A stretch of 64,000 nucleotides of DNA from Colwellia demingiae (GTDB lineage: Bacteria; Pseudomonadota; Gammaproteobacteria; Enterobacterales; Alteromonadaceae). The position numbers were made by a program, and so were the translations under genes. Below the pieces are notes generated by a model. It was not told where the DNA came from, made no database searches, and worked only from the letters and a program-made list of their open reading frames with translations. This document shows, in pieces, positions 42,030-46,683 of the stretch (the first letter of the stretch is position 1; each line of letters starts with the position of its first letter). The stretch spans positions 248,001 to 312,000 of the forward strand of contig NZ_VOLT01000005.1 of the NCBI RefSeq assembly GCF_007954275.1, given 5' to 3'.

Positions 42030-42812
42030 TTAACCCTCCGCCTTTAAATCGATAGAATTCATGAATAACCTTGGGTCCTCTATTTTTTCTAGCATTGAAG
42101 TCTCAGGTAAACAATCATCATCAACGTAATCAACATAATCACCAGTCGAATCAAAAACTAACATATCCAGCGCTAAACGATCTAATCCGTATATACCTCG
42201 ATGGATCATGTCAGCCGAAAAAACTAACAAGTCGCCCGCAGCTAACTTAATTTTTTTACCGGTAGAGAGGCCTTCACTACTCACTCTGCCCTTTTCTTCT
42301 TGTCGGACATCAAATTCTTCCTCATTATCCCATCGTTTGTGTGTTCCTGGCACCAATTCCATGCCAAGTTCATCAAATAAAGGAATTCGAAAATGCACTA
42401 CTTGCGTCTCCTGAATGACCTGTTTTTGATCTTCAACGTCATAGTCATATTGACAGTCTCGATGCCAAAAATCTTTTTGTAGAGGATTAACGGGGTTAAA
42501 AAATAACTGGGTATTCATAAAAGCTGGATTAGCCGCCATCACAGAATCGACAATGTTCATTATTTTTTTTGAACTAATAAAGTTAAAAAGCTTCACCCGA
42601 TCGTCATACGCTAAGTACTGACTTCCCGTTATTAAAGAAGAGTTGAACGCTTCTTCTTGATAAAACTGTTCGTTGTCTTTTTTCCATGCTTCATGGAATT
42701 TTAATATGACTTTTCTAAGTGCTGAAATTTCAGCCGCATTAAAATAATCTCTAATGACAAAGTAACCTTGTTCGTGATAACTACTATTTAATTGACACCG
42801 ATTTTCAACCAT
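42030..42812 (-). CDS. Phytanoyl-CoA dioxygenase (PhyH) family protein
   Basis: The 260-residue product has the PhyH start QGYFVIRDYFNAAEISALRK and the Fe(II)-binding HRD motif in FWHRDCQYDY (about residue 116). The distal His lies in DMIHRGIYGLDRLALDM (about residue 205), with an Arg for 2-oxoglutarate. These are Fe(II)/2-oxoglutarate oxygenases; bacterial members hydroxylate diverse small molecules, and this substrate is unknown. It is transcribed alone, and no biosynthetic genes adjoin it. Confidence 0.87.
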   Translation of the reverse strand: MVENRCQLNSSYHEQGYFVIRDYFNAAEISALRKVILKFHEAWKKDNEQFYQEEAFNSSLITGSQYLAYDDRVKLFNFISSKKIMNIVDSVMAANPAFMNTQLFFNPVNPLQKDFWHRDCQYDYDVEDQKQVIQETQVVHFRIPLFDELGMELVPGTHKRWDNEEEFDVRQEEKGRVSSEGLSTGKKIKLAAGDLLVFSADMIHRGIYGLDRLALDMLVFDSTGDYVDYVDDDCLPETSMLEKIEDPRLFMNSIDLKAEG

Positions 42813-43284
42813 TTACACCCTTTGCCTCCACTTTAACTTTCTTATAAGAATAATATTTACTGAGCCGCTAACTTTTATGTCAAAAGCTCTAGCCTCAAAG
42901 TGACTATTAACGTTGTCAGGAATAAGGGACGATTTTGATATATTAAAGGGCACTCAATAGACATAACTTAGTTAATTCTATCTTAAGAATTATAAGCTAT
43001 TTAAACTGGCTTTATCACTTAATTCACCCTGCTAAAAATCATCAATTTACTCCGACAATCGAACGCTGACCGTGAGTAACACAAACAAAGTGATATCAAA
43101 GGAAGTTATGAAAGAAAAAGAAGGGGAATAACGGGGATAGTAACTAAAGATAAATAATTAAAATATCCTTAGTTACTTTTCATGCTGATAAACCATTTAA
43201 GGTGTATCTCATTACTTTAATGTTCCAAAGTACATGATTCAACACTAAGATTTCATTATTTTAATATTGTCATTATGACCAATA
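42813..43284. other. Gene-free gap between PhyH and the small lipoprotein
   Basis: No gene is supported. A 7-codon ORF with a good ribosome site (AAAGGAAGTT, then ATG at 43108, stop at 43131) lies just ahead of a hairpin at 43140-43180. The rest is AT-rich without recognised features. Confidence 0.4.
43140..43180 (+). terminator. Terminator-like hairpin in the PhyH/lipoprotein gap
   Basis: GTAACTAA (43140-43147) pairs with TTAGTTAC (43169-43176), and GATA (43149) with TATC (43164), separated by an A-C mismatch, before TTTT on the plus strand. It stands 9 bases after a 7-codon ORF. No plus-strand gene is known upstream, so what it terminates is unclear. Confidence 0.5.
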
Positions 43285-43527
43285 TTAATTAGTGATGTCA
43301 TCTTTCATTTTTCGAGCGAATTCATCGGCATGGTCTTTACTATATTGACGTTCAGCTTCGGTGTTACATATTTTTTTACTAATACGTGTACCGGTCACCT
43401 TAACGTTTCTACATTCATAACCAGATTTTTTTTGTGCTGCGCTAAGTTGACTATCATCTCCCTGCTTATCAGTATTGCTACATGCAAATAAAAGCGTAGA
43501 TAACGTAACTAATATAATAGTTTTAAT
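43285..43527 (-). CDS. Small lipoprotein, 80 residues, apparent ATT start
   Basis: A frame too short for usual ORF lists encodes a lipoprotein signal (KTIILVTLSTLLFAC, lipobox LFAC, lipidated Cys16) and a mature part with four motifs: GYECRNVKVTGTRISKK, an ICNTEAER stretch, and two Cys (39 and 54) that may pair. A similar arrangement (VTG-x-R-I followed by a C-x-T motif) is common in small secreted proteins of Alteromonadales. A stop TAA lies one codon before the ATT at 43527, and no ATG, GTG or TTG occurs before the signal peptide. An AAGGGA ribosome site lies 7 bases upstream of the ATT. Either ATT is the start codon or the start was lost by mutation. Confidence 0.6.
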   Translation of the reverse strand: MKTIILVTLSTLLFACSNTDKQGDDSQLSAAQKKSGYECRNVKVTGTRISKKICNTEAERQYSKDHADEFARKMKDDITN

Positions 43528-44052
43528 TTAAAGTTCCCTTTAAGTTAAAGATATTCATGATTATTTCCTAACCAGACTGCCAAACATTAATCATTATCAA
43601 TATGATTGTCAACTTTCGATTTAAGATTGTTTATTTAAACGTAATCAAAGCCTATTGCAGTTAAAAAACATTCAAAACAAGACAAATAAAATCACTTATA
43701 GCCCTATATAATTTATTCTCTTATTAACGGATTAACATCACTTGAAGAGGAGTGAAAATGGGCGTTATCGTTTTTCATGTTGCGTAATTGATACCAATAA
43801 ACTGATATTGAGTAAAGCTATGCAAATAACTATTCTTACATGAGAGAAAAGAAAGCTATGTACTAAAATATCGGCTCCATCCCCCTATATCTAAAAATCT
43901 TATCGCTTGATCTCCTCCTCAATATAACAACTTAGTAATGATGAAAACTCATACTTTATGAGTAGATTCATTTCATCCTTTTGGTCTACATCTGCACAGG
44001 GAGATTAATAATATAATACCGCTGAGTCTTTCAGTTATATAAAGGGAATAAA
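43528..44052. other. Gene-free gap upstream of the cytochrome gene
   Basis: No gene is supported. GAGGAG followed by ATG at 43758 opens an 8-codon ORF (stop at 43787) that could be a relic. Base 43791 begins ATACCAAT, resembling a MITE end but without a partner. The cytochrome promoter must lie in the last 100 bases. Confidence 0.4.
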
Positions 44053-44436
44053 ATGAAAAGCAAGATATTGGGTATGTCAATTTTAGCAGCGACTATCTCT
44101 TTTACTTCATTAGCGGAAGGTAATAATGAAGTGATGATGCAAGCAGCAGGGCAAGAAATTTTTAAAAAGTGTAGTGCATGTCACTCAACCGATACTAGCA
44201 AAAATACATTTGGTCCTAGTTTAGTTGGTGTTATAAACCGCAAAGCAGCATCTCTTCCTCGTTTTGCTTATTCTGAAGCATTACAGAAGTCAGGTCTAAC
44301 TTGGACAGAAGCAAACCTTCGTCGATGGATGGCAGGTAATGATATTTTAGTGCCGGGTACTCGTATGCGTCATGTGCAAATTACTGACCTAGCTGAACAG
44401 AACTATTTATTGGCGTACCTTAAATCATTAAAGTAA
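44053..44436 (+). CDS. Class I c-type cytochrome
   Basis: The 127-residue precursor has a signal peptide (ILGMSILAATISFTSLAEG) and one haem site C-S-A-C-H (residues 40-44). The distal ligand is probably Met105 in PGTRMRHV. FGPSLVGVINRKA and YSEALQKSGLTWTEANLRRWM are the usual cytochrome c2/c550 segments. It is a soluble periplasmic electron carrier. The gene stands alone with its own terminator, so its electron partners are unknown. The ATG follows AAAGGGAATAAA. Confidence 0.92.
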   Translation: MKSKILGMSILAATISFTSLAEGNNEVMMQAAGQEIFKKCSACHSTDTSKNTFGPSLVGVINRKAASLPRFAYSEALQKSGLTWTEANLRRWMAGNDILVPGTRMRHVQITDLAEQNYLLAYLKSLK

Positions 44437-44458
44437 TGATGAGTGTTTTATCACGATG

Positions 44459-44497
44459 AAAAAAGAGCTTTGACGTTGATTTTAAAAGCTCTTTTTT
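44459..44497 (+). terminator. Terminator of the cytochrome c gene
   Basis: AAAAGAGCTTT (44461-44471) pairs with AAAGCTCTTTT (44485-44494) around a loop of about 13 nt, followed by more T. It lies 23 bp past the stop codon. Confidence 0.9.
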
Positions 44498-44596
44498 AAT
44501 ATAAAAACATGTCATTTAGAGAATGTAAACTTTCAACCATAATGCCTAACCCGCTTAATTATGATTAGTTAGTGAACAGCATTTAATAATATGCGA

Positions 44597-46378
44597 TCAC
44601 CATTCCCGCAATTGTTGCATTTCTTTCAATCGTCCACGTTGCATCACCAATGCTTCAAATAAATCATCCACTGACGAGTTATCTGAACTTAATCCCGGTA
44701 ACGCAATATTCGCTTCAGCGAAAAAACGTTTCTGAATGTTATCTTCTGGCTCAAGCCAAGCGACTTGCCACCACTGTTGAATTCTTTCTTTTGCTTGTTT
44801 CAGTTTTTTTTCGGTTGGTAATTTATCGCTTTTCTGATTATTAATTTTTCTATCCGTTGGCAGTAAATTCCATAAATCATTATTCGGCCAACGTGCAAAA
44901 GGCATGCTGTGATCAATGTCGTACTTTTGTTTTAATGGTTTTGCCGACCATACACATCGAATCTGTTCTTGCTGATTATGTTTTAAACTTTGCTGTAGCT
45001 TTAACTCATCAAAGCGCTTACGTACTTCGGTTGTTGTGCGTTTAGGCTCTTCCCACTTTAACACTTGGTATAAGTGGTATTGATTTTCTGGTGATTTATA
45101 TTGGCTATTGCCTGAATAACTCGCCATGGTTTTTACCCATTCACTGACTAATACAGGTTCAATCCAGCACGCGTAACGGTTGAACGCCAACCACGTTGAC
45201 TCAGGTAATGAAAACTCCCCCCACTGTTCTAATGTTTGTAAATCAAGGAAGATACTGTCTTTTGCTTTAACCGTTTTACTGGCAACTTCAAAAACAGTCT
45301 TATCGCTGTTAGGCTGGGTGATAAAACGACATGGCATTGTTTTAATATTGCTAACGGCTGCCGATATTGTTTTATATAGCGCTACAGCAGTATCACCGGT
45401 AAATATATTTCCAATTCGATAATCAGAGGCTTGTAGCTTGGTTAATTTATGCCAACCATTAGGCTTCATAAAGCCCATGTTGGAATTTTTATTAGGCGTT
45501 TGATGTAAGTTATGTTTATCAATTAAGTCTTTATATTGGTGACACCAGTAAAGCGCAACTAGCCCTATGGGTAAGATCACTCTGTCACCGTCTCTACTTG
45601 ACTCTCGTCTTAGCACTGATCCAGGATGTCCATCGGCAATACGCAGTAATACTCGAAGCAAGGCAAGTTTATGTGTGGCCGATTTACCGTCATTAATTGC
45701 GACATGGCGAATGAATGGAAAAGCACCCGTGCCGTCATCTGGCATTTGTAATACGACTGTTTGCCACGAAACGTGATTTCTACCGAGTTTATCGTCTTCT
45801 TTCTGGGTTTCTAATTTAGTGAATAACCCAACATTGTTTGCTAACTGCTTTAATTCATCAGCGCATACGGTATGCATTTTACGTGTAATGCGCTCTTCGT
45901 CGGTATGTCCGTGACGAAGTGAAATGACGAGGTTACCGCCCGGCTTTAACAGGTTAGCTAATTTACGAATTGAGCGTGCACGATCACTTGCAGGGATATG
46001 CATCCATACTGCACTTAATAGTATTAAGTCGAAACTGACTTCTTGCTTGGTGATGGTGCTTAATGCAGGTAATGAATCAGTTAGCCATTTTACGTTAAGG
46101 CCTGTGGTTTGGCGTGCGCCAATATCTGCAAGTATGTTGGCCGGCTCTACAGCAAAGACTTGAATGCAATTTTCAACGCCATGTTCTTTAACCGCTAATT
46201 CAGCAAAGTGTTTAGCATCGCGTCCCGAGCCCGCACCTAAATCGAGAATTCGTGCATGTGAATTATTTATAATGGCTGGCAAAAATTGCGACCAGCTTTT
46301 ATGTACCTGTTCAAATGACTTTGAAAGATATTGCTCGGCTAATTTATTTGCATTTTCATTATAAAATTGTGGTGACAA
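44597..46378 (-). CDS. Methyltransferase-HNH nuclease fusion protein
   Basis: The 593-residue product has three parts. Residues 1-210 are a class I SAM methyltransferase (motif I ILDLGAGSGRDA at 44-55, acidic loop AVEPAN, motif IV region LILLSAVWMHIP, post-motif LLKPGGNLVISLRHG). Residues 220-450 are an uncharacterised, partly helical domain starting KSATHKLALLRVLLRIADG. Residues 470-530 are an HNH-type nuclease domain (CVWSAKPLKQKYDIDHSMPF with DIDH at 487-490, then WNLLPTDRKINNQKSDKLP). The start is TTG at 46378 with AAAGGAA upstream. I know of no such standard fusion. A modification-plus-cleavage enzyme of a defence system is plausible but unproven. Confidence 0.8.
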   Translation of the reverse strand: MSPQFYNENANKLAEQYLSKSFEQVHKSWSQFLPAIINNSHARILDLGAGSGRDAKHFAELAVKEHGVENCIQVFAVEPANILADIGARQTTGLNVKWLTDSLPALSTITKQEVSFDLILLSAVWMHIPASDRARSIRKLANLLKPGGNLVISLRHGHTDEERITRKMHTVCADELKQLANNVGLFTKLETQKEDDKLGRNHVSWQTVVLQMPDDGTGAFPFIRHVAINDGKSATHKLALLRVLLRIADGHPGSVLRRESSRDGDRVILPIGLVALYWCHQYKDLIDKHNLHQTPNKNSNMGFMKPNGWHKLTKLQASDYRIGNIFTGDTAVALYKTISAAVSNIKTMPCRFITQPNSDKTVFEVASKTVKAKDSIFLDLQTLEQWGEFSLPESTWLAFNRYACWIEPVLVSEWVKTMASYSGNSQYKSPENQYHLYQVLKWEEPKRTTTEVRKRFDELKLQQSLKHNQQEQIRCVWSAKPLKQKYDIDHSMPFARWPNNDLWNLLPTDRKINNQKSDKLPTEKKLKQAKERIQQWWQVAWLEPEDNIQKRFFAEANIALPGLSSDNSSVDDLFEALVMQRGRLKEMQQLREW

Positions 46379-46549
46379 TCGCGTGTTCCTTTCGCGTTGG
46401 TGGATTTATCATTGTGATATTCTGACACAGGCACCATCAAATAACAGTTGTGCTTTGTCAATAAACAGTACGATAAATCAACAATACAATCCTAAACTAA
46501 ACAAATAGTTAGCTTAAATCACAACGATTGGGGTGAGATATAAAACGAA

Positions 46550-46580
46550 AAAAGGCCGATACATTACGTATCGGCCTTTT
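46550..46580 (-). terminator. Terminator after tRNA-Leu
   Basis: GGCCGATAC and GTATCGGCC (46554-46562, 46568-46576) pair perfectly over 9 bp around a 5-nt loop, followed by TTTTTT on the minus strand. It closes the transcript that contains tRNA-Leu and probably secG. Confidence 0.92.
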
Positions 46581-46598
46581 ATAATAATTTAAATCTAG

Positions 46599-46683
46599 TG
46601 GTGCGGATGGGGGGACTTGAACCCCCACGACCTAAGTCACCAGCCCCTCAAGCTGACGCGTCTACCAATTCCGCCACATCCGC
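46599..46683 (-). tRNA. leuU: tRNA-Leu (anticodon GAG)
   Basis: The reverse strand folds as a type-II tRNA: acceptor arms GCGGATG / CATCCGC, a D-arm around GGAATTGGTAGACGCG, anticodon loop TTGAGGG between CAGC and GCTG, a long variable arm, T-loop GTTCAAGTC, discriminator A and an encoded CCA at 46601-46599. The loop gives anticodon GAG, matching E. coli leuU, which also lies after secG. Its 5' end is 55 bp from the secG stop. The 3' end faces the methyltransferase-nuclease gene. Confidence 0.97.

Follow-up and report, generated by a model that had tools for sequence, protein, structure and literature searches.

A methyltransferase-HNH nuclease fusion at a variable tRNA-Leu site of Colwellia demingiae: a candidate mobile defence enzyme

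What might be the work of a protein that joins, in one chain, a methyltransferase of the small-molecule type to an HNH nuclease, and how did its gene come to lie beside a tRNA gene? The gene belongs to Colwellia demingiae and lies in the window analyzed here, a stretch of 64,000 nucleotides of contig NZ_VOLT01000005.1. We call it MT-HNH, for methyltransferase-HNH fusion; this label, like the cluster labels c1 and c3, is our own.

The gene, its domains, and its site

MT-HNH is a single-copy gene in its own 5.2 Mb genome. It reads on the minus strand from a TTG codon at 46378, with an RBS-like AGGAAC in front, to a stop codon at 44597; a plus-strand reading of 44597-46378 was dropped, its translation having 56 stops. 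The features of the gene and its site are as follows.

44053..44436, plus strand: cytochrome c, 127 aa, resident border of the site (99% identical and in the same place in sister genome G033)
44502..46542, no strand: variable stretch, about 3 kb of other DNA standing in its place in G033
44597..46378, minus strand: MT-HNH fusion gene, 593 aa, TTG start, stop included (Pfam)
44600..44788, minus strand: C-terminal helices, residues 531-593, W593 invariant
44789..45013, minus strand: Cas9-type HNH nuclease domain, residues 456-530, with D489, H490, and N513
45014..45742, minus strand: middle domain, residues 213-455, with the motif S-A-T-H/Y-K-x-A-L-L-R; SBD-like fold tentative
45743..46378, minus strand: class I SAM methyltransferase domain, residues 1-212, with D46, G48, G50, E78, and W125-M126-H127
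46379..46465, minus strand: conserved upstream block (TTGACAAAG..., GCGAAAGGAACACGCG), common to homologues elsewhere, likely promoter and RBS
46599..46683, minus strand: tRNA-Leu(gag), resident border of the site, upstream of MT-HNH

Pfam profiles match both ends of the protein, and none matches the middle domain up to an E value of 1. At the N terminus, Methyltransf_23/25 match residues 24-159 (E 2e-11), together with Methyltransf_11/12/31 and weaker kin, and the closest folds are METTL6, CmoM, and UbiG, which act on RNA or small molecules; we take the enzyme to be UbiE-like. DNA base methyltransferases carry (N/D)PPY or PC at motif IV. This motif was looked for in MT-HNH and is absent, W125-M126-H127 occupying the motif IV place in 46/46 aligned homologues. 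At the C terminus, HNH_4 matches residues 483-521 (E 2e-7), the HNH domain of Cas9 is the best match to residues 456-530 in both sequence and structure, and the D-H...N catalytic residues and fold of an HNH_4/Cas9-type nuclease are present, by comparison with the SpCas9 residue numbers; domain and profile searches of the protein found no match to the other parts of Cas9. None of the 46 aligned homologues departs from MT-HNH at the SAM-site or HNH residues.

The initial annotation, made from the letters alone, had placed at 44597-46378 a 593-residue fusion with DLGAGSG as motif I, WMHIP at motif IV, a middle domain without clear relatives, and DIDH and WNLLP/KINNQKSDKLP segments of an HNH nuclease at the C terminus, lying 3' of a tRNA. 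All of this agrees with the profile matches and with the tRNA-Leu(gag) on the same strand, as do its reading of the methyltransferase as a small-molecule type and the expected conservation of the HNH residues. It did not mention the minus strand or the TTG start.

Matches to MT-HNH occur in 53 of 99 relative genomes, about 22 of which, its own included, hold full-length or nearly full-length copies (the G048 copy, counted as nearly full length, reaches residue 545 only). Since dN/dS is in addition 0.05-0.09 (12 comparisons, with dS saturated), the reading frame is more than a chance ORF, and its methyltransferase and HNH domains are under strong purifying selection.

The window can be matched in sister genome G033 as far as 44501 and again from 46543 on, 3 kb of other genes lying in between, and the relative-genome search found no MT-HNH match in G033. 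Because G033 lacks MT-HNH and keeps the cytochrome 99% identical at the same site, the cytochrome is not part of the insert. The earlier view took the place between tRNA and cytochrome to be typical of mobile cargo. MT-HNH does lie at a variable site; the cytochrome is a resident that we rejected as cargo. About 160 bp past the cytochrome terminator, G033 has the start of a SauUSI-like gene (first 31 codons, 74%, E 1.5e-10) directed towards the tRNA, and the bases upstream of this start are 76-82% identical over 71-84 bp to two of the four copies compared. This remnant indicates that an island with such an end once occupied the window's site in this lineage, and we infer that MT-HNH and the SauUSI-like end once stood there together. 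The window itself, searched from 42800 to 44600, shows no trace of a SauUSI-like gene. Its MT-HNH copy would be the left end, still preserved, of an island that has decayed and that had the layout MT-HNH > cargo < SauUSI-like gene.

The interval between tRNA-Leu(gag)/secG and the cytochrome (44502-46600; L171-L190) is a variable hotspot, holding other genes in G033 and an apparent type I restriction-modification operon in G026. Extra copies, 55-60 nt long, of the tRNA-Leu(gag) 3' end occur in G020, G002, G024, G030, and G006, in the last two on other contigs.

Distribution, movement, and island neighbours

Among the 99 relatives, the closest MT-HNH copies are at most 83% identical to that of the window. 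A scan of named genomes confirmed at least 533 of at least 596 pattern matches, and the best 80 were kept as named loci. The half of the protein comprising the middle and HNH domains matched in 10 of 369 Gammaproteobacteria, over a long stretch in 6 (own included); the frames of these six are 472-632 aa long and include the methyltransferase, that of G286 with a stop. Of the 62 plasmid records that match MT-HNH, 10 span 80% of it or more, the hosts being Pseudoalteromonas, Azospirillum, Roseomonas, Sphingobium, Sinorhizobium (3 pieces), and HL-AS2 (split form). Three phage records match, in the methyltransferase part only; in one locus, Escherichia phage phi458 (L236), a methyltransferase homologue (35%) lies near an integrase and overlaps an upstream gene of 194 aa with no assigned function.

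A comparison of 20 full-length relatives (L021-L040) places the gene at the window's site in one, G007; a copy at a contig edge in G004 lies there too. None of the window's neighbours was found beside the other full-length copies in this set, save GGDEF paralogues in three. MT-HNH, on this evidence from genome comparison, moves horizontally and sits at different chromosomal places in related Colwellia. Even at the shared tRNA-Leu site, MT-HNH of G007 is only 74% identical to that of the window (DNA) vs 94% for the secG/tRNA flank, and the two copies were therefore probably acquired or replaced separately.

Several copies are internally deleted and keep both gene ends (L044, L045, L056 and L052, L055), two deletion junctions being common, by eye, to copies from different genomes. 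These copies look MITE-like, a reading that was dropped: one junction (L044, L045, L056) falls, by eye, at a short GATATTG-type repeat, and transposition could not be demonstrated. Tandem arrays or single units of a 24-bp sequence (approximately GTAACTTCGGGAATGACGAAGGGC) lie upstream of MT-HNH copies or remnants in L026, L044, L045, L052, L053, and L055, and upstream of SauUSI-like (c1) genes in L191 and L193; any such unit was found in 15 of 201 loci, counting stray single matches and duplicate loci. The 5.7 kb contig G001:C85 (L055) seems to carry two or three successive units, each made up of an array, an MT-HNH remnant, and further genes.

Homology between MT-HNH copies covers the upstream block and the open reading frame and, by eye, mostly ends at the stop codon, the exceptions being some 30 bases between the window and L025 and one downstream gene common to L023, L028, and L029. 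Beyond the stop, 36 of 52 named loci (L061-L112) have a gene of 150 aa or more that starts within 600 bp and runs in the direction of MT-HNH; in 4 of the other 16, a SauUSI-like gene comes first. Genes downstream of MT-HNH matched PADLOC profiles (E<=1e-5) in 16 of 20 cases vs 3 of 10 outer controls (one ExoI-like, one a TPR match). A first set of 10 slot genes from 7 loci, chosen by eye as recurrent or defence-looking, gave nine matches (E1-E2, RT-associated MBL, MzaB, MzaC, LmuA, LmuB, AriA/PtuA-like, HamA, and Cas3e), a NERD protein remaining without one. The second set, the 10 first downstream genes in list order from new clusters, skipping a serine-recombinase-like gene in L068, gave seven (PDC-S20, dGTPase, PDC-M68A, WYL, HamA, PDC-M65A, and MkoC), of which the WYL and dGTPase matches are not defence-specific; L069, L076, and L078 had no match. 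The neighbourhood thus bears out the expectation of defence genes near homologues, and MT-HNH in its relatives often travels with antivirus genes. Some fused plasmid copies have no annotated defence neighbour in an incomplete gene table. The idea that the fused gene generally stands alone was given up, since the Pseudoalteromonas THAF3 copy adjoins a dGTPase and a nuclease-related-domain gene and the Azospirillum copy two HNH genes.

The SauUSI-like gene, which lies outside the window, combines PLDc_2, ResIII, and DUF3427 (Pfam) and matches mREase_IV at E 9e-212 (PADLOC), as determined on one copy, L074. It is present in the flank of 19 of the 80 named loci (the best 80 of at least 533 confirmed): 16 downstream and convergent (L089 by a contig-edge piece only), 1 downstream and co-directional, and 2 upstream. 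The remaining 61 flanks lack a DUF3427-type gene of this kind, 58 having no match and 3 another helicase; 9 of the 80 cover less than 3 kb downstream of MT-HNH. Among the 99 relatives there are 13 full-length copies (identity >=68%), nine of them within about 10 kb of a full or remnant MT-HNH sequence and four elsewhere (G024, G033, G064, G069); G085 has the pair in divergent orientation. At synonymous sites, the last-codon windows of the SauUSI-like gene (16 copies) are the most conserved of 988, unlike the 3' end of MT-HNH.

Exchange of nuclease partners

The methyltransferase family also occurs apart from the HNH fusion. In six of eight PLD-helicase-type loci, fetched by a looser match to the SauUSI-like helicase, a methyltransferase homologue lies just upstream of the helicase on the same strand (L205, L206, L208, L209, L210, L216); it overlaps the helicase or lies within 5 bases of it in five and, in L210, precedes a broken-off helicase start. 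L204 and L211 have no methyltransferase homologue. The helicase of L208 (1390-4320) ends in a Peptidase_S24 (LexA-like) domain (E 1e-10). An SBD-HNH gene stands beside the stand-alone methyltransferase in three of four methyltransferase-fetched loci (L047-L050; broken in L048), the SBD having been identified on the L050 protein (E 3e-31 to SBDHga1). In L047 and L050 the row runs stand-alone methyltransferase, cold-shock-Excalibur protein, SBD-HNH nuclease, with domains checked on L050. Middle-domain-HNH genes adjoin stand-alone methyltransferases in L232, L248, and L230, the methyltransferase of the last being only 20% identical.

Among 369 Gammaproteobacteria, 13 stand-alone methyltransferases were found at E<1e-10, and 6 have such a nuclease in the flanks covered, at most about 1.5 kb on each side (with one gene between in L249 and L257, and convergent in L251); in those flanks the other 7 have none, and three of these (L252, L254, L255) form a starred clade of their own. 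A tree of 39 methyltransferases, whose details are unsure owing to long branches such as L230, requires four changes for the PLD partner and three for the middle-HNH partner, starred branches forcing three of each, and three changes for the fused forms, two of them forced. The nuclease partner of this family, by the tree, has been switched several times. SauUSI itself is reported to be active as a single polypeptide (PMC3874153), so that a methyltransferase is not needed for it.

Possible functions and comparison with known systems

MT-HNH is very probably a defence nuclease. Our best explanation, which we advance tentatively and as a little short of an even chance, is a single-chain, horizontally moving restriction-type enzyme whose unconventional methyltransferase licenses its nuclease. 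The HNH domain would cut invading, unmarked DNA; the middle domain would read DNA; and the methyltransferase would set a non-canonical methyl mark on nucleic acid of the host or on the feature that the nuclease recognises. Such a mark would keep the nuclease off self, in the manner of restriction-modification with a UbiE-like enzyme instead of a DNA base methyltransferase. This logic is suggested because the methyltransferase is constant, the nucleases are interchangeable, and the fused gene occurs without its usual neighbours. Weighing against the explanation are the activity of SauUSI as a single polypeptide, the 7 of 13 stand-alone methyltransferases with no such nuclease in the flanks covered, the fused plasmid copies lacking annotated defence neighbours, the 61 of 80 flanks without a SauUSI-like gene, and the 16 of 52 loci with no close co-directional gene. 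That the methylation is a self mark is possible, and we hold it with slightly greater doubt. The defence or nucleic-acid-modifying role proposed initially is thus supported in part.

The main rival, somewhat unlikely in our judgement, is a modification-dependent (type IV) nuclease, in which the middle domain reads a phage DNA modification, HNH cuts, and the methyltransferase serves either as an accessory, altering or capping the modification, or as a SAM-sensing gate, and leaves no mark on the host. The methyltransferase family pairs with nucleases of type IV character, PLD-helicase (compare the SauUSI-like neighbour) and SBD-HNH, and among the matches listed the sole structural match outside HNH is the SBD of ScoMcrA. 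That match is weak, however (rmsd 6.1), and the profile comparison is not significant (E 0.14). Searches of residues 213-593 against the PDB, which barely probe the middle domain, so that a missing match carries no weight, gave no Foldseek match at E<=0.001 and 38 sequences at E<=10, all aligning around HNH. With an alignment that is not secured, K237, invariant in 46/46, fits the Arg/Lys position of the His-Arg/Lys pair (H116, R117 in ScoMcrA), residue 236 is H or Y in 20 aligned rows, and Gly302 seems to take the place of the cavity Pro (P165). The own genome has no DndC, which exceeds its cut-off in 6 of 99 relatives, only one of which (G015) has a full or nearly full-length MT-HNH; a phosphorothioation link was accordingly dropped. 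The type IV reading also leaves the constancy of the methyltransferase unexplained. Two further explanations are each quite improbable. As a selfish gene, MT-HNH would spread by its HNH domain like homing endonucleases, with defence genes as passengers; its many sites within one genus, its internally deleted copies with both ends kept, and the 24-bp arrays upstream of some copies fit this picture, but homing does not need a methyltransferase, no defined ends or target duplications were seen at the window's site (the sole comparison with a gene-free genome), and synonymous sites at the 3' end are no more conserved than elsewhere in the gene (rank 252 of 472 windows), for which reason we also rejected that end as a recombination site. 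A role outside defence, as an enzyme that modifies RNA or small molecules and has a nuclease-like domain for repair, would suit the closest methyltransferase folds and the copies without annotated defence neighbours, but sits poorly with the pattern of cargo and partners and with the patchy distribution, those 6 long middle-HNH matches in 369 class genomes.

If, as in the restriction-type reading, the methyltransferase protects its host, restriction-modification logic would here use a mark from a methyltransferase class that, to our knowledge, is not known for DNA restriction, and that is found time and again beside nucleases of which some are known to act alone. The repeated pairing of methyltransferase and nuclease suggests an undescribed discrimination of self and foreign DNA. 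A broader proposal, which we consider rather unlikely, is a new branch of restriction in which a constant small-molecule-type methyltransferase acts as licence, protecting nucleic acid by a non-canonical methyl mark, the nuclease is swapped (PLD-helicase, SBD-HNH, middle-domain-HNH, fused HNH), and, in Colwellia and its kin, the fused form and a convergent SauUSI-like gene bracket an exchangeable defence slot. The bracketed slot would also be a place to look for more defence genes in marine bacteria.

No published description of the fusion was recognised in a partial survey of titles and abstract beginnings, which does not prove its absence from print. PD-Lambda-5, grouped with HEPN systems in excerpts of the literature, was rejected as an equivalent. 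The methyltransferase domain matches positions 278-447 of the PADLOC profile of MADS Mad2 (E 7e-14), but that match spans residues 28-214 only, leaving the middle and HNH parts outside, and Cas9 resembles MT-HNH in its HNH domain alone. SauUSI-type (PLD-helicase-DUF3427) type IV enzymes are neighbours in some MT-HNH islands, and their looser relatives pair with its methyltransferase family, yet they have no domain in common with the fusion. The SBD-HNH enzymes (ScoMcrA, SBDHga1) join a sensor domain, with its weak fold match to the middle domain, to HNH, and partner the methyltransferase family in three loci; their HNH, however, is of another subfamily (HNH_2), the sequence similarity is not significant, and the MT-HNH host lacks DndC. 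Type IIG/IIC restriction-modification enzymes use DNA methyltransferases of the N6/N4 or C5 type, and their nucleases mostly have other folds. MT-HNH is like them a self-contained mobile gene with methyltransferase and nuclease (HNH_4) in the same chain, and differs from them in having a UbiE-like methyltransferase whose motif IV reads WMH, and in its Cas9-type HNH.
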